Below are positions 17,630 to 30,500 of a DNA stretch of 64,000 bases, piece by piece. The notes under the pieces were generated by a model, which was given only the letters and a program-made list of their open reading frames with translations, did not search any database and was not told the DNA's origin. Within the stretch, counting starts at the first letter, position 1. Each line of letters begins with the position of its first letter. Source of the stretch: Chloranthus sessilifolius (taxonomy: Eukaryota > Streptophyta > Magnoliopsida > Chloranthales > Chloranthaceae); the NCBI GenBank assembly GCA_021018995.1, contig CM037590.1:43898287-43962286 (forward strand), written 5' to 3'. Both the position numbers and the translations under genes were made by a program.

Positions 17630-18543
17630 GAGCCGGTTCCGTTCTCCAAGGTCCACATGGAGCTCCACGTAGCACCCAAAGCACTATTTGGGTGCCACAA
17701 GGAGCAAGGGTGTGTTGTTTAGATCACTTTCAAAAAAAAAAAATAGCATAAGTCAAACTTTGACTAGTTTCAATGGTCCAAATTTCATTGCTAAAAAACA
17801 CATGGTGGAGATGAGTTTAGAAAAAAAAAATTCAAAGATGATCTAAGAAATTCACCTGTGCTCCACGTGGCATCCAAACAGTGTTTCGGGTGCCACATGG
17901 GACCTTGGAGGATAGTCTCCATGGTTCAAATTTCCGGACAACACTGATATGTATCGGTTTCGGAAGGCACCGGGTCGATATATTGCAATATATCGACTCA
18001 TTAATGTATCGATCAAATTATCGACCAGACATTGAAATTATCGTTCGAACGATAATTTCAAATTACCATTTGACAATTACAAATTTTATTTTAAAAAAGA
18101 AATGACAAAGTCTTGATTGTCCAATACATTGAATGATGGATCACATGATACGAATGATACATATTGGTTTGGGGGGAGACCGATATGTACTAGGTTTCTA
18201 AGATTTTCACCCATGACAGTCACCGTCCTCCATGGGAGGAAAGAAGCCTCTTCATATATATATATATATGGGAAAAGGGGTGGTACTCACAGGGGTAGCG
18301 CTCGAGTGCTACCCACGTGAGCTAAATCACATGCCACATGGCATGTGATCTCCAAAACAAAACCCATTTAGAAGTGTTCAACCACATGGCACGTGATTTA
18401 AAAAAAGTCATTTTTAGGACCTTTTTTCCCTTCAAATCGTAACTCTAATATAGCAAGACAACTCCCCAACTTTGGTGCATTTAATTTTTAACCTTTGACC
18501 ACATTTTCAACGGTGGACAAGCACCTTTATATATATATATATA

Positions 18544-18587
<44 letters not shown>

Positions 18588-21500
18588 GTACCTGATCGAG
18601 CTTGGGAAAGTTGTTGTGGCAACCAATCTTCGAGTTGGGTGCCACATGACACCCAACTAGCTCATGTAGCGCTCGGGCGCTACCCCTGAGGGTATATATA
18701 TATATATAAAGCGGTAAGGTGCTCCAGCAGTCCAAGTGGAGCTCCACATGACACCTAAAACCTTGTTTTGGTGCCACGTGGAGCAAGGTTATTTTGTTTA
18801 GATCATCTTTAGAAAAAAATTTCAAAAACTCATCCCCATCAAAAATATAAACCATTGAAATCAGCCAATTGTTTGACTTTTACCTTAAAGAACTTTCAAT
18901 TTTTTCTAAAAGTTTATCTGAACAAGCATATGAGCTCCACGTGGCACCAAAACATTTGGGTGCCACATGAAGCTCCACGTGGACTGTTGGGGCACACTCA
19001 CCGCGTTGGGCACGTATTATACGTGTATTTTTCAAAAACAGTCATATTTTTTCACAATTATTGGGGTTTATATGCCACACAGTAACATAATAATCTCTAA
19101 ATAACATATACCATATATTGGGCTTTCGAAGACAAGCGATTTCAAGATAATGAGACCATGCCATTTCTTTAGTTAATCCCATAATAAAAAATAAAAGAAT
19201 ATGTTGAAGTCATTCTAAAAAAGTTAGAAATACAATACAAAGTTTTAAATCTCCGGGTCTTATTGATGTAATCGGTAGAAGGCTCTCGTGATCCACTGAT
19301 CTTTACAGGTACACATTCCCAATGCCCTTCATTGAATCAAAACTAGATGGAAGAAACTAAGGCCCCTCTTCTATCCACCTCGAGATTCATGCACGTAGAG
19401 AGGCTCCAATTGGGGTTGGAATAGGACCATAAGGGAGTATGAATATGTACAACTTACCCTAGGGCTCAAGCATGCCACATATCATCTCTCACCCGTCATT
19501 AACTACGTAAATAATTAACTAAAAATATCATTTTTCAACCCTTTATTTTCATTTAAATCTCTCCATCAATCATTATCTTGTAAGCACCATAGAATATACT
19601 ACTATTACAATGTATAGAAATTGTCAACCTTGCTCTATGGAATCAAAATTTAATCTCTAAAAAGTATCTTGTAGATGACCAGGCTAGGATGTTGATCGTC
19701 AGATTAATTCGATGAGTGATACATATTTAAATAATCATATGGACCCCTTAGTTATCTTCAGGATTAATGTACCCACTACCACTATTCTTAAAGTCGTTGG
19801 GCGGGTTCGGGCGGTCGGGTGGATGTTCGAGCGGAAGTCGCCACGCCCCAACATCCAAGCGGCTCCAAAGCATGTATTAAATTATATACATTTATATTGA
19901 ATTAAAGTATGTACACCACTATATATATATAGTGGTGTACATACTTTAATTCAATATAAATGTATATAATTTAATGTGTATTCAATTTTTGAATCTATAA
20001 AAAAAAAAATATCAGAGTATCAGAATAAGAGTGTCGGGGAGATATCTGGTATTTGCCTCTCTGGTCTCACCGAAGCTATGGCACAAGAGTGCCTGAGAGA
20101 GAGAAATAAAAGATAAGAAAAAAAATGTCTCTTAAAAAGTTGACGCCTCACCCAAACTTTATAACACCCAAGAGGGCGCCCCAAGCCCGGTCCGCTAAAG
20201 TCGGCGTCTAAGGCTATATTGGGACACCTGGGGGCCCGGACCATTGCCCACCGCACTGAGATATTAGTTGGCACAACAACATCAATCATTAGTAAATCAA
20301 AGCACAACACCTCATCCTAAGATGCTCCTTTGAAAATCTCAGGTCAAAAGATCAATGAAATAAAGCTAAGTGCTCTTGCTTACCTGGTTTCTCATTAAAC
20401 TAAACAAGTCTATGCCATCTGGAGACAGTGCAACTCCGTAGGATAGCTATGAGAATGGATGTGTTGTCCTGACTCATCCCCAAGCTATGAACATTTCAGT
20501 TCTACATAGAATTGATAATTACGTCTATCAGAAGAATACGATTTAAATTTTGTTATCAAAGAAACCAAATAAACCTCGTAAGTCCTAATTGCCTACTAAT
20601 GTTCTCTGAGGCCACACTCATTCTAAAGAGACCCAAATCAACTCATGAAGTGAAATGTAGTCAAAAGTATGCACACAATCAATATCATATCAAGGAGAGA
20701 AATCATGAAGATCAGGTTAATGAAAGTCAATCAATGCAATGATTTTTTTTAGGGCAGAAACTCCAACTGTAAAGACTCGATTCAATACCAGGTCAGATAT
20801 TAATTTTAAGTTATTTGTACAATTATAATTTGCATATATTGGGGTTTAGTGAAATTATTAATTAGATAGGTTAAATTTGGTATTGAGACTATTGTTAGGG
20901 ATATGGTAATTTAATTGATAAAAAGGGTCTTTGAGACATAGAAGTGGTTGTGATGGGTATAAGAGTAATTTAATAAATCAGATGGCACATTAGGCAATTG
21001 TATGAATAATAGGGTTATACTAATAATTCAATATTAGGGTCTTTTAGGTAATTCAACAATACCAAGGGCTTATTAGGCATTTAAGTAAAAGTTCATTTAA
21101 ATTAGTATTTTATTATGTTAAAAAGTTAAAAGAGCTTGCTAGAATGGGAGAGATGATACGAGAGTTTGGGAAGAGGGTTTGCGAGAAGGATATATGGGGT
21201 GAGATTGAGGTCCTCGTGTGGGGGTTTGTTGAAAAAAAAAATGACAAAAGCAGAGACAGAGCTAGAGAGTTAGGGATAGAGAGAGAGCCCGAGAGAGAGG
21301 TAGTGAGAGAGAAAGAGACCTAGAGAAAGAGTTGGTGAGGAAGAAGAGGACTTGAGAAAGAAGAACCCTAAATTTGGAATTATGAGGCAAGTACCCTAAT
21401 CTAATATATTTTTGATTGACGCAGAACGGTACCCTAAACTACGTGAATGAGATGATTGATTTGCCAAAATTAAATTGAATTAAATTAAACAATAAACCTT

Positions 21501-24500
21501 GCAAAATATAACGAATACCTCAGGCTTTCGTAGTATTCCATGGGAGAATCACGCATAATTCAGGCAGGGTTCAGTCTGGGCGTTAGATCCGTTAAGTTGC
21601 ATCGTGGATCGTTCCTTGAGATAGGACTCTAGAATTCCAGATTAGGGCGCTCACAATGCAATGATGGAATCCCTGGTTTTTGGTTATTTTAATACGGCTG
21701 TACTTAACAGTCTGATGAGGCTACGGTTGTTGAATCAAGTCGATTCAATGGTTTAGGGAAAACTAAGGTTTAAAATCTCAAAAGATGATGGTCGATTTAG
21801 GGTTGTAAAATCACGCAAGCAAAGACAATAAGATAGATAGGTAGATAGATAGATTTGCAGGCCTCATAGCCTTGGCTTCACACCAAACCCTTCTCGGGAA
21901 GAAGAATCACTCTCCGTATAGGCTCATCTCAAGCACACAAGCAAAAGCTCTTTTCATTAATCATCAACTAACTACATTGTTCACTTAAGGACCTTATATA
22001 GAAATCCTTTCAATAAAAGAAAACCCTAAAACAAATAATAAATAAAAGGCAAATAAACCCCTAAGACAAAATTCGAAACTAAACTTTTAAAACAACTAAA
22101 ACAACCCGACACGATTTCAATCGAACGAAATTGAAAACCGTTCAATCGAAATTGAATTTCGTTCGATCGCAATTTCGATTGATCGAAACTGAAAATCATT
22201 CGATCGGAATTCAATTTCGATCAATCGAAATTGAAAATCGTTCGATCGAAATTCTCATATACTTAAAATATCTCCGTTGACATTTCGATCAATCGATTTT
22301 TTTCTGTGCTCCTTCAATTTTCATAATTTCATCTTTCGCCTATTTCTGAGTTCCATTCCGCTTCTTCCGACGTCGGTACGCACGAAACGGTCCATATCAA
22401 ATGTCTACGATGTCGGCGTCCCCGTCAATTCTCCCGGGCCGAAAAGGCTTCATCACCGATGAAACTGCGTCGTGATAGCGCTCGAATATATCGGGGTCCA
22501 AACATCGCACTTCGTCTTCAGCTAACCATGAATTCTCGGAGTCCGACTTTCCCAACCACTTAATCAAGTACTTTTGAATTCCGCCCCCATGGGTGGATAT
22601 CACCAAATCATCTAATATCCCTTCGATCTCATCTCTGCATTGCTTGCCTGGGGAAGGGAAGGGTAGGGGCTGTAGGGTGGGGCTGGTATTCGGGCTCGGG
22701 GCTGCTTGGAAGGGGTTGTGAGGGGGTGGGGCTGGAGCTAAAGAAGGAACCAAGTTCTCCACATTGAATGTAGAGCTGACCCCTATATCCGGTGGAAGCT
22801 CGAGAACATATGTATTAGGTCCGCTCCTTGCAACAATTCTAAAAGGCCCAGCGCCACAGGCTTGAAGTTTCTTTGCGGCTCCCAATGGGAACCGCTCAGG
22901 CCTAACCCAAACCATAACGTAATCTCCAACCTGAAATTCTTTGAAGCGCCTATGCGCATCCGCAGATATTTTATACTGCTCATTGCTTGCATTAATTCTT
23001 TTTCTAATTTCGGCATGCAATTCATGTATATGTTGTGCAAATGAATCGGCTGACTCGGAGACTCAATGGGATGCAAACATGGGAATTAGATCAATGGGTG
23101 TTCTAGGCCTATCACCAAGGACGACTTCAAAAGGACTCATACCTAGGGATCTATTGATTGAATTATTGTATGCAAACTCGGCTAAAGGCAAAATAGAATC
23201 TCAAGTCCTAGGGTGATCGCCAACAAGACAGCGGAGAAGATTACCTAAGCTCCTATTGGTGGACTCCGTTTGGCCATCTGTTTGAGGATGATAGGCCAAA
23301 GAAAATTGGAGCATGGTACCCATCATGTGCCATAAGGTCTTCCAGAAATAACTGGTAAATTTCACATCGCGATCCGACACAATCGTCTGGAGTAAACCAT
23401 GTAGACGCACAACCTCCCCAAAAAATAATTTGGCTATGTGAGCCACATCAAAGGTTTTAAAACAGGGTATGAAGTGGGCCATCTTGGAAAAGCAGTTCAC
23501 TACCACAAAAATGGAATCGTGCTTCCGTTGAGTCTTTGAAAGTCCAAGCACGAAATCCATAAAGACGTCTTGCCACGAGGTGTGCGGCACGGGTAAAGGG
23601 GTGTACAAGCCGGTATTTTGTTTGATATGCTTTGTAACTTGGCATGTACGATATTGTTTCACGACCCTAGAGACATCCCTCACAAGGCTAGGCCAATAGA
23701 ACCTATCCTCAACAAGCGAACTGGTTCTATCGCGCCCAAAATGTCCGGCAATCCCTCCAGCATGTAACTCCCAGATGAGGAAATCACGCAATGAAGTACG
23801 AAGGATGCACAAACGATTGCCTTTGAACAAATACGCATCCAACAGGGTATATTCGAAGTTAATGTTGTTCGGATTCTCAAGGAAAGCAGTGTATTCTACC
23901 CCGAAATCTGGGCAATCAAGATAATCTTGTTTCAACTGCTCAAATCCGACTACCTCGGTGCTTATAGACTGCAAAGTCGCCACTCGACGACTAAGCGCAT
24001 CAGCAGCCTTGTTTTTTGCACCAGCTTTATGCTTCAAAACAAATGTGAACCCTTGGAGGTACTCGACCCACTTCGCGTGCCTCGAGTTCAACTTTTCTGG
24101 GAAGCAAGGAAACGTAAAGCCTCGTGGTCAGAAAACAACACAAATTCCTGCAGTCTCAGGTAATGTTTCCAATACCACAGAGATCGGACGACCGCATAAA
24201 ACTCATTGTCATATGTGGAGTATTTCTGCTTTACCTCATTGAGTTTCTCACTAAAATAGGCCACAGGGTGACCTTCTTGGCTTAGCACTCCGCCTATGCC
24301 TACACCCGACGCGTCACAGGCTACTTCGAAGACTTTAGAAAAGTCCGGTAGGCGCATGACGGGTGCAGTAACCATTTTCTCTTTTATCTCAGCAAAGGCC
24401 CTCGTCGCGACTTTGCTCCACAGGAACTCCCCTTTTTTCATGCAATCGGTAATGGGAGCCATAATGGTGCTAAAATTCCGGATGAAGCGACGATAAAACG

Positions 24501-27500
24501 TGGCCAAATCGTGGAAGCTACGGACTTCATGAATATTCCGAGGTTCGGGCCACTCCACAATGGCCTTAACCTTCGTAGGGTCTCCAACCATCCCGTCTAC
24601 CGAGACAATGAATCCCAAGAATACAACAGAGTGCTGCATGAAGGTGCACTTCTTGAGATTCGCGTAAAGCCTTTCTCCCCTCAAGGTTTCGCAAACCAAC
24701 CTCAGTTGGATAATGTGTTGCTCCTTGTCTGTACTGTAAATCAGAATGTCATCAAAGTATACGACAAGGAACTTGCCAAAGAATGGCCTCAACACTTGGG
24801 TCATGAGCCTCATAAATGTACTCGGGGCATTGGAAAGTCCAAAAGGCATGACCATCCACTCATAAAGACCGTCTTTAGTCTTGAAGGCGGTTTTCCATTC
24901 ATCGCCAGGGCGAATACGAACCTGATGGTAACCACTTTTAAGGTCTATCTTGGAAAATATAGTGGCTCCAACCATCATGTCTAGCATGTCATCAAGCCGC
25001 GGTATGGGAAACCGATATTTAACAGTGATCTTATTAATCGCACGGCTATCCACACACATGCGCCATGTACCATCTTTCTTAGGCGTGAGTAATGCTGGTA
25101 CGGCACACGGGCTCAAACTCTCTTGTATGAATCCCTTGTGAAGGAGCTCACTGACTTACCGAGTCAACTCGGCATGCTCAACCGGATTCAACCTGTAGTG
25201 GGGCAGGTTCGGTAATGTAGATCCAGGATCTAAGTCAATTGCGTGTTGAATGTCACGCATGGGAGGGAGCTCATTAGGTAAGTCTTCGAGGAAGACATCC
25301 GCAAATTCATTTAGGATGGGCTCTACCTCCTTGGGGTACTCACAGACTGACTCAGAAGTACTCTCAACACTGACAACGACATACACGACGCTCTCATCTA
25401 ACGATGCCCTCTCGAACTCTGAAGGGCTCACAATATTGATGGCCTTGGATTGGCCTCCCTTCTTCTCAACTCTATTGATCGATGGTGCTTTGGGAGCCAA
25501 AGGGTTAAGAGTGATTTTCTTGCCCTTGTAATTGAACGTGCAAGTGTTAGATCGACCAAAAATGGTCACGTTCAAATCATAGAGCCATGGCCTCCCTAAG
25601 ATAATGTGGCCCACATCCATCGCACCACATCGCACCATAAGGTGTCAAAGTATGAACCCAACTATATGGGTACACGACACCTCTGAGATATGGGAATGGA
25701 TGAGTCAACCCATGCGACTTTGTAAGGTCTCGGGTGGGCTTCAGGTGCAAGCCTTAAGCGGGTGACGGTATGTTCTGACACCACATTGGTGCAACTTAAA
25801 CTATCCACGATAACCCTACAACTCTTCGTCCCACATGTGGCAAAGGTGTGGAAGATGTTCTCCCTTCGCCAATCCTCCTTTTCATCTCGTTGAGGTTGTG
25901 CAAAGGCACACCTCACAACTAGAGCACGACACATGTCATCACCTTCCTCGTCACTAGGTGTGGCATTCGGCTCAAAGACTTCTTCCTCATACACTCCTTC
26001 ACTTTCATCTCCAAGAGATTCCTTTGTGAGTCCCTTGTGGGCCATTGGGTAGCAAAGTGACCCAATCCTTGACATTTATAGCATATGGCATGAGACCCAT
26101 TCTTCGAGGATTCTCCGGCTACACCCTTACCTTTGTCAAATCTCACATTGGTAGACGTGGGTTGCGTGGGTTTGGTAGGCGGGTTTCCAGCACTGGATTC
26201 CACTTCGCCGGTTCAGAATTGACTGGAGTGAAAATCGGATCGCCTAGTCGCCGTCATTTTTAAATATCGTTCAAGGTCTTGAATGACGGTGTAACACTCG
26301 GCGAGAGTTTCAACAGGGTGGGAGACTAACTCTTTTTGCAGGTCAAGTCTCAATCCGGTGCGAAATCTAGATAGAGTGACTTGAGGATCTTCGGATACCT
26401 TGGCTCTTATCATGAACTCTTCATATTTGCCAATGTAATCCAATACGAGCATACTACCTTGGCGCAGATTTTGCCATTAGTCAAGGAGACGATGGTAGTA
26501 TGAAGAAGGAACGTACTTCTTTGTAAGTCGCTCCTTCATGTCCTCCCAATGGGTAATGGGAGTACAACTCGCATTCGTTCTGATGCGTTCAACGTTGACC
26601 CAAAACAGTCGGGCTTGGCCTATGAGCTTCATCTTAGCAAGTCTAACGCACCTTTCATCACTCATGCCAAACCACTCAAAGTGCTGGTCTATATCAGATA
26701 ACCAATCGAGGAAGACCCGAGGGTCTAGTCTTCCATCGAAAGTCGGGAACTCAACTCGGACATTTTTGAGAAGTCTCCCTTCCGGGTCGTAGTCATCTCC
26801 ATGATGATCTAACATATTGTTCCGGTTTCGATTATGTTGGTAGCCATTTCGTTCGAATCGAGGACCATTACGCTCACGAGGTGGTTCAAAGTACTCATCA
26901 CCTTCTTCTAACCGATTGACTCGGTCTAACAACCTCTCATTGGATGTTTCGAGAGTCCTTTGGGCTGTCTCTAAGGCAGTCATTCGATCATTGATCGATT
27001 TTAGATCAGCCCTCATGCCGTTAAGAGTTTCGACAATCCCACTCATGTCCATGGTGATACAGTTCACTAATTGACAGGCTCTAGAATGGAATGCAAGATG
27101 AACACTTTGGCCAAAATTGAAATAATATGTGATGAAAATTAAAGTGCAATAAATGCAATATCACACAGTATGCCCTAACCTAGAAATCTAGAATTCTGAT
27201 ACCAAAACTGACGCAGAACGGTACCCTAAACTACGTGAATGCGATGATTAATTTGCCGAAATTAAATTGAATTAAATTAAACAATAAAACTTGCAAAATA
27301 TAACGAATACCTCAAGCTTTCGTAGTATTCCATGGGAGAATCACGCATAATTCTGGCAGGGTTCAGTCCGGGCGTTAGATCCGTTAGGTTGCAGCGTGGA
27401 TCGTTCCTATATATAGGACTCTAGAATTCCATATTAAGGCGCTCACAATGCAATGATGGAATCTCTGGTTTTGGGTTATTTTGATATGGTTATGCTTAAT

Positions 27501-30500
27501 AGTCTTAGGGAAAACTAGGGTTTAGGATCTCAAAAGATGATGGTCGATTTAGGGTTGTAGAATCACGCAAGCTAAGATAATAAGATAGATAGGTAGATAG
27601 ATAGATTTGCAGGCCTTACACCCTTAGCTTCACAGGAAACCCTTCTCGAAAAAAAGAATCACTTTCCGTATAGGCTCATCTCAAGCACACAAGCAAAAGC
27701 TCTTTTCATTAATCATCAACTAACTACATTGTTCACTTAAGGACCTTATATAGGAGTCCTTTCAATTAAAAAAACCCTAAAACAAATAATAAATAAAAGA
27801 CAAATAAACCTCTAAGACAAAATTCGAAACTAAACTTCTAAAACAACCAGACACGATTTCGATCGAACGAAATTGAAAATTGTTCGATCGAAATTGAATT
27901 TCGTTCGATCAAAATTTCGATCGCACTTTCGATCACAATTTCAATCGATCGAAACTGAAAATCGTTCGATCGAAATTCTCATATACTTAAAATATCTCCG
28001 TTGACATTTCGATTGATCGAATTTTAATTTCGATTGATCGAATCGAAATTCAATTTCGATCAATCGATTTTTTTTCTGTGCTCCTTTAGTTTCCATAATT
28101 TCATCTTTCACCTCTTTCGCCTATTTCTGAGTTCCATTCCGCTTCTTCCGATGTCGGTATACACGAAACGGTCCATATCCAATGTTTACAATGTCGGCGT
28201 CTCCGTCATTGATTCAATCTATTTTTTTTTTAGCCAATTACTGCAGCATGTAGATATTTTGTGGTTTTTCTCAAAATTACTGAGAAATTTGATTTTTGGT
28301 TAGTTAAGAACTCAATACACGTTTGAATAAATTTGAGTTTCTTTCTGATCTGATACATTAATGAATTGGAATTTTCTTTTGTTAACCGGTATATGATTTA
28401 ATTGACAAGAATTTGGGGTTTTCCCAAAAACACTATGTTAGAATCTGAATTTTGGATACTAAATTATATGGGTATGTTGTATTCAGCCCTATAAATTCGG
28501 GTTTACAATTATAGAGTATATTTTTAATTTTCGTCACGTTTGCTTGAAATAATCCGAAGATTATATCATATCATATGTATAAACTTCTGCCCTGCAATCT
28601 GAATTTTGCATATATATTTTGTTGAATATGAATATTTGCAAAAGCATCGTATTTAATATTATTACTCGATTCACGTAAATATCAATCTTTGAGTGGATTA
28701 AATATGAAATTTTGATTTTTAACGGGTTATTTGTCTCTTTTCCGAGGGTGAATTCTTTTAGGAATATAAATCCCTGCTTTCTTATATTTATGCATTAAAT
28801 TTGAATACCATAATTTCTGAAAGGCAATGAGATGGTGCCTATGGGTCGTGATGGGACAATTCTAACACCCTGGTCAGGTCGTGAATTCGTTATCTGCTAT
28901 TTGTTTTGTCATCTGATCTCAACTAAAAGATTAGTTGAGGAAAGAACTTGATATTCGTGCTATTAGCTATAAAATTTTCCCTAACAAAGATAAATCTGTT
29001 TTGATAGTTTAAGTGAGAGATTTATTACTTATATGTTTGATTTATGGCATGGGTAATGAGTTTTGCTATAGTACTATTTTATGTGTCACTTTAATACCAA
29101 CCTGACTTCATCTAAAAAGTCTTATTGTAATGTACCTTGATAAACAAAATTTGAAATTTTGTTGTTTGTGGTTTAGTCAATATTTATTAGAATAGGTTAC
29201 TTGTGGAGTATGTGGATTAGCTCTTACAGTGGTTTAACCACCCTGCAGATTAAAGGAAGAGTTGCAAACGGAGTTCTTGGCTAGTGTTGACTGGTGAAAG
29301 TTCGGTGACTGGTATAGGTATTTGTTATATATAGTTTGTTACTAGCGAGTGACTGCTTGTAGTAATGTCGGAATAATTTTGTAAATATAGTTGTCTAAGT
29401 CTGTTGCAAAGAGAAGTTGTGTTAAAAGGTTTCATACATTGTGTTGACCGGTTATATGTAATCAAAGGAAATTTTTCTTCTGTTCCTTTGAAACTGTGAT
29501 TTTTCTTCATGTTTGTATTATGTCCCTTGTTAGAGAAAATTTTCATGTTTGACTAGTCTGGGTCGCGACTCGAAATCTAGGTGTGTGGATTTTGTGTCAT
29601 GGCATCAACACCATAGATTATACGTAGCAAACAACCAATAAAACATGACAAGAGCAACATATTCCAATCTGGGCCAAATGAAGGCCTTCAAAAAACATAA
29701 CTAGACCTAAGCCTTATACATCCGCCTACATAATATTCTCCAAAGGGTTGCTCAAGTGAATCCCTTCATTAACTGTCTTATCCATGCCCACGTTCAGAAG
29801 TGGATTATCGTAGATTTTCTAGCTAAATAGGGAATACGTGGAGGGAATTATTTTTTTTGGAGGTGATATCTCAGTTGGTAATTTTTCTCTTCTTTTGCTT
29901 TTTTGGCCTACTTCTTGCTGACTCTTGTAATTCCTTATTTACTACTAAAATATCATTGCCAATAATTGAAAATTCTCAAGTTGCAAGAACAGAAGAAAAT
30001 AAAATTTAAGTAGCCTAAGAAGGTCTTCTGTGATAATGTATATCCAGCTATAAAATCAGTGATCCTATGGCGAAAGCACCAGAAAGAATTAGCAATACTG
30101 CACCTTTTAAAGAATCCTTATGAAGTAGAAGCAACAACCTCCAAAGAGTGCAACTTATCTTAATATGAGATAGTTCATAGCAACACCACAATAACAAGTC
30201 AATAGCTTACGCAAATCATACCGTGGTCAATTTGTTCAGGGTGCCATCAATTTGCATAAAGTAAGCCTGCAAAATTTGACAAATACACAGCTTAGAGTCT
30301 AAATAAATCAAATGTGATTTATATAAAGTATGGTTTCGATTATAACCTCAAGTAACATTTCAAGCTCTTCAATATCATTCTCATTTCCATGAATAGTTGC
30401 TGCACTTGCCCTGCTTGCTCTAGATATCTTTGAGCCTATAGTTGGAGATGCAGGGAACCAATTGGGGACACCAGAGCCACTAACGGGTGAAGATGCCCCA

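Follow-up and report, generated by a model that had tools for sequence, protein, structure and literature searches.

How does a perfect palindrome of 100 bases, with no loop between its arms, come to lie in an intron of Chloranthus sessilifolius? The initial annotation of the window, the whole stretch of 64,000 nucleotides analysed here, had reported such a palindrome, and it was confirmed in the assembly as 50 + 50 nt at 19876-19975. The arms, at 19876-19925 and 19926-19975, are 50 nt each and 100% complementary, with a spacer of 0 nt. The bases flanking them, T at 19875 and G at 19976, are unpaired. Since the central 12 nt (19920-19931) consist of (TA)6, each arm holds 44 informative nt.

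Rarity of the palindrome and its host gene

Spacer-free palindromes were counted in a sample of 264,000 bases, made up of the window together with twenty 10-kb stretches of contigs C1 and C2. The sample held 363 with arms of at least 9 nt, and 328 of these, with arms of up to 34 nt, were excluded as simple dinucleotide runs. The remaining 35 consisted of 34 with arms of 9-16 nt and the palindrome at 19876-19975, so that the next longest arms outside simple repeats measured 16 nt. AT-rich-repeat palindromes without a spacer are described as common across eukaryotes generally, and the longest perfect inverted repeat reported in human has arms of 140 bp (PMC13155455). Perfect arms of 50 nt are thus rare without being unprecedented. 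The window also holds a perfect 30-bp palindrome at 18032-18061, with 15-nt arms and no spacer, and a palindrome with 12-nt arms nearby at 17974-17997.

The gene around the palindrome, on the minus strand at 14945-36726, encodes an MRS2-type magnesium transporter; the exons were chosen by eye and their ends are unrefined. Its exon-bearing open reading frames, all on the minus strand, lie near 36.7-36.2, 35.7-35.5, 35.4-35.2, 34.5-34.3, 30.6-30.3, 16.3-16.0 and 15.3-14.9 kb, so the palindrome falls within the intron bounded by the exons near ~30.3 and ~16.3 kb. When the exons were joined, residues 47-349 of the 370-residue query matched Mrs2 structures at 2e-10, and this match takes in exon pieces from both sides of the palindrome. 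The earlier assignment to an intron is thus supported, as minus-strand MRS2-like exons flank the palindrome on both sides. A Pfam scan of six protein pieces gave Ureide_permease above the cut-off in one piece, MRS2-like matches below the cut-off in two and no match in three; the genes of the window are plant-like and also include a ureide permease piece. The same intron contains a Ty3/gypsy-like retrotransposon (21417-28208) with direct repeats at 21417-22427 and 27209-28208 that are 82% identical. Reverse-transcriptase- and integrase-like open reading frames, named by eye, lie between these repeats on the minus strand.

A dispersed hAT-like family contains the palindrome

A 200-base query spanning the palindrome found numerous dispersed relatives in the genome, with at least 79 matching places, its own included, when the best 40 of 160 candidates were scored. 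Most of the relatives align only from the centre of the palindrome rightwards. Whole-genome searches covered the 2.17-Gb assembly in 32 contigs. The search for further copies that the initial annotation had proposed found the 32-nt family core, with at most 2 mismatches, at 145 other places (0 for the reversed control), and the exact 38-nt centre of the palindrome at a single place, the locus itself. It had also been stated that no terminal-inverted-repeat family in the window explains the palindrome. Within the window this holds, as nothing beyond short, weak AT-rich matches was found; genome-wide it does not, because the palindrome sits in a dispersed hAT-like element.

Twenty copies were oriented to establish the layout of the family. 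After the terminus CAATGTTCTTAAAG comes a GC-rich 5' half, which ends near CCCCGAAGTAT; a tract of TA/CA/TACA type, differing in length between copies, separates this half from GTGATATACATACTTTATTTCAACATAAATGTATATAATTTAAT and a longer, variable AT-rich 3' part. The 3' terminus TTTAAGAACATTG or a close form was accepted in 7/20 copies, which are 397-764 bp long, and these two-ended copies define the terminal inverted repeat of the family as CAATGTTCTTAAA..TTTAAGAACATTG. Of the other 13, three had weak 3' matches with 4 errors that were left out (L017, L024 and L025), one had a 3' match alone (L015), and nine had no 3' match. The 8-mers flanking the seven two-ended copies, compared by eye, agree at 7/8 positions in L009, L011 and L021, 6/8 in L019 and L027, and 5/8 in L014 and L028.

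The dispersed family was judged by the usual criteria of the hAT superfamily. Short terminal inverted repeats were found in 7/20 copies, and candidate 8-bp target-site duplications flank seven copies with agreement, by eye, of 5/8 to 7/8. By these marks, the only ones from which its name is taken, the family appears to be a hAT-like non-autonomous element (MITE). At one place (G000:C4:42240520-42240592) two family cores in the same orientation lie 41 bases apart, probably through tandem duplication within one MITE copy.

The window's own copy of the MITE occupies 19780-20255 on the plus strand, as delimited by comparison with the family, and begins with CACTATTCTTAAAG where the family has CAATGTTCTTAAAG. 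Its 3' terminus is degraded. Homology reaches 20248-20255 when the copy is compared with two others, no family-type 3' terminus was found for it, and it probably ends with CATTG at 20242-20246 or is truncated near 20255. The candidate left target-site duplication, CCCACTAC at 19772-19779, agrees by eye at 6/8 positions with CCCACCGC at 20247-20254, a weak match that depends on a presumed 3' end.

On both sides of the palindrome the layout of the family is collinear with this copy. The GC-rich 5' half (19780-19875, plus strand) ends with CTCCAAAGCATGT, which in other copies leads into the microsatellite. Here it is followed by the left arm (19876-19919), an inverted copy of the right arm in minus orientation that is absent from 45/45 other copies read. 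Next comes the (TA)6 centre (19920-19931), a probable remnant of the TA-rich microsatellite of the family and the presumed switch point. The right arm (19932-19975, plus strand) is family sequence, the start of the AT-rich 3' half and the putative copy template. The remaining 3' half (19976-20246, plus strand) is collinear with other copies. The "GTACACCACT block" to which the initial annotation drew attention is family sequence read as its reverse complement, the consensus being GTGATATAC and the form here GTGGTGTAC, and the AT centre of the palindrome fits a residue of the element's TA-rich microsatellite.

The left arm as a putative template-switch product

Because the left arm is the part of the palindrome that the family layout does not include, other copies were examined for it. 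After removal of duplicates 45 distinct copies were read (20 + 5 + 20, the last 20 being 501 bases each), a sample biased to near-consensus copies. An inverted arm within 300 bases was found in 0/45 of them, in a search that tolerated up to 6 substitutions per 25 nt. L013 has a weak opposite-strand match with 5 mismatches that lies 328 bases off. Upstream of the right arm, 44/45 copies have by eye a TA/CA/TACA-type tract, and L060 has a remnant of ~10 nt. A genome-wide search for exact 10-nt family arms that face each other across 10-40 nt, a pattern that detects only copies whose 10-nt arms are unchanged, returned this locus and one unrelated palindrome on C9 (1 place for the reversed control).

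The palindrome on C9 is nearly spacer-free, with 25-nt arms and 1 nt between them (L078:142-192; G000:C9:102161741-102161791). A part of it, TAATGAGCCATCCCCAGGGGATG, is found again at a distance of 140 bases, where the outer arm is lacking. It consists of a short self-complementary centre joined to adjacent sequence in reverse and is possibly a second template switch.

Outside the TA centre the two arms of the palindrome in the window agree at 44/44 positions; the left arm is the exact reverse complement of the sequence adjacent to it, as a template switch would leave. The best of 20 other copies compared with the arm reaches 41/44. The right arm differs from the majority of the 14 gap-free copies at four positions, and the left arm has all four of these changes, which taken singly are present in 1, 2, 0 and 5 of the 14 copies. 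On the 20-copy sample the four variants in common, with all other copies at 41/44 or less, point to a local source. Identity of the arms alone is insufficient, because 3 of the 190 pairs among the 20 other copies also score 44 (15 pairs scoring above 44 were disregarded, as six stretches had been extracted over-long). The case for the right arm as the source is therefore carried by the shared private variants. Most likely the left arm was copied locally, in inverted orientation, from the right arm of this MITE copy.

We wondered how such a copy could arise. From the paralogous copies, which lean to the consensus, the layout before the event would have been a GC-rich 5' half, a TA-rich tract and an AT-rich 3' half. 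At the self-complementary (TA)n tract the nascent strand would snap back on itself, or else change over to the other strand, during replication or repair; both copying from itself and copying from the opposite strand are compatible with the sequence, and either may have occurred. The polymerase would then take the neighbouring 44 nt of the 3' half as its template, copy them in reverse and, by way of a very short AT match, rejoin the original template where the tract ends on the left. A perfect palindrome with no loop, having the TA tract at its centre, would result. The expected switch points are a (TA)6 centre and, at the left junction, microhomology of ~2 nt (AT) by eye, and both are present. 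The left switch point is inexact because CATGT, the 5 nt left of the left arm, may belong to the microsatellite or else extend the copied tract slightly.

Perfect reverse-complement repeats are among the described products of template switching (PMC8794818). Great-ape template switches are reported to be enriched in AT-rich and poly(dA:dT) sequence, with copied tracts of median 12 nt and maximum 128 nt (PMC7954356). A tract of 44 nt is long for such an event, yet it fits within this range. Among the matches listed in a literature search, the text available described no spacer-free template-switch palindrome in a plant MITE. With good confidence, and on the evidence of the sequence comparisons, we interpret the palindrome as the product of one template-switch mutation within an older hAT-like MITE. 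It is most likely a clean footprint of a known type of copying error and not a new kind of element.

Other accounts of the second arm were weighed against template switching. It could be an artefact of assembly, polishing or library preparation from a chimeric or folded molecule; the arms are perfectly identical, and palindromes are known to cause difficulty in sequencing (PMC4057610). A folded read, however, is expected to run on into the inverted flank, and here only ~44 nt are inverted. Beyond a single arm the sequence resumes in the element's own 5' half, just where it should, which makes a simple fold-back unlikely, and the junctions coincide with the TA-rich tract, as expected of a biological switch. 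On balance we consider an artefact unlikely. The family is numerous, with 145 core matches within 2 mismatches, and a second copy or part of a 3' half might have inserted in inverted orientation into the TA tract of the first. Such an insert would be 44 nt without an element end, and it would have all four changes of the right arm when the 20 other copies compared reach at most 41/44, which leaves this event highly improbable.

It is just as hard to credit that the palindrome is ancestral to the family, as a foldback element whose other copies lost the left arm by deletion of the centre. Perfect palindromes are indeed liable to breakage and loss (PMC7999016), but the left arm is kept in 0/45 copies at the sensitivity used, and old arms should diverge, not share changes, unless homogenised by conversion. 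Both the inverted second insertion and the ancestral foldback are disfavoured by the shared variants and by the 0/45 copies. Finally, the palindrome could be an intronic siRNA precursor or miRNA-like precursor held perfect by selection. Folded as RNA it has a predicted energy of -63.6 kcal/mol (shuffle mean -17.3, z -16), with a predicted 48-bp stem on the sense strand of the MRS2-type gene. Against selection, an Rfam scan of the window returned nothing at gathering score, and exact sharing with the arm is at least 21 nt in only 2/45 copies and 20 nt in 14/45, in a sample that leans to near-consensus copies. A selected hairpin is accordingly the account to which we give the least credence.

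The arms also bear on age, with 0 differences in 44 aligned bases since the event. Plant DNA changes at ~7e-9 substitutions per site and year. Because 0/44 differences are seen at this assumed rate, a loose bound of about five million years can be set on the age of the event, and a looser one if the arms convert each other. Of the three possibilities that the initial annotation had offered, namely that the palindrome is very young, selected or a fold-back artefact, youth is supported, short of proof, by identical arms with private changes, and a simple fold-back fits poorly.

Possible consequences and comparison with known systems

The palindrome probably has no function and is neutral intron sequence; taken alone, it most likely represents a neutral mutation of an ordinary kind. 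Targeting of the MITE family by siRNA was considered as a role and found weak, as only 2/45 copies share 21 nt or more exactly. It is a very long shot that the perfect 48-bp MITE stem in the sense transcript of the MRS2 intron may yield, on dicing, small RNAs that target the MITE family, a capacity that would have been born in one template-switch step. If true, the locus would be a miniature counterpart of Mu killer, a gene-borne hairpin trigger arising at a TA tract.

The wider interest of the locus lies in how legible it is. As a template-switch footprint in a plant genome the palindrome would be unusually clean and long, with no loop, and the layout before the event can be read from numerous sister copies (45 read, 145 places matched). 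Perfect hairpins have been proposed as raw material for new small-RNA genes. Judging by this locus, such hairpins may be born in one step where a MITE has an internal (TA)n tract.

The family resembles hAT-superfamily MITEs in that it is short (397-764 bp), has terminal inverted repeats and has flanking 8-mers that agree at 7/8 positions in three of seven copies. The copy in the window differs from them in its internal inverted duplication and degraded 3' end. Palindromic AT-rich repeats (PATRRs), which are human translocation breakpoints, share with it a near-perfect palindrome and an AT-rich centre. PATRRs are several hundred bp long, whereas the palindrome here has 100 bases. Mu killer of maize is likewise an inverted duplication of DNA-transposon sequence, and like it the palindrome could be transcribed from a gene. 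The hairpin RNA of Mu killer, of ~4 kb, is proposed to silence MuDR (PMC3440606); the stem here is under 50 bp.

There is also a close likeness in form to template-switch mutations (TSMs) in the four-point model of Loytynoja and Goldman, in which a short perfect reverse complement arises beside its source at an AT-rich site and yields a new perfect stem (PMC8794818, PMC7954356). The copied tract here is 44 nt against a reported median of 12, within the great-ape maximum of 128. Unlike those events, the palindrome is loop-free with a self-complementary TA centre, and its ancestral state comes from paralogous copies, not from a species tree.
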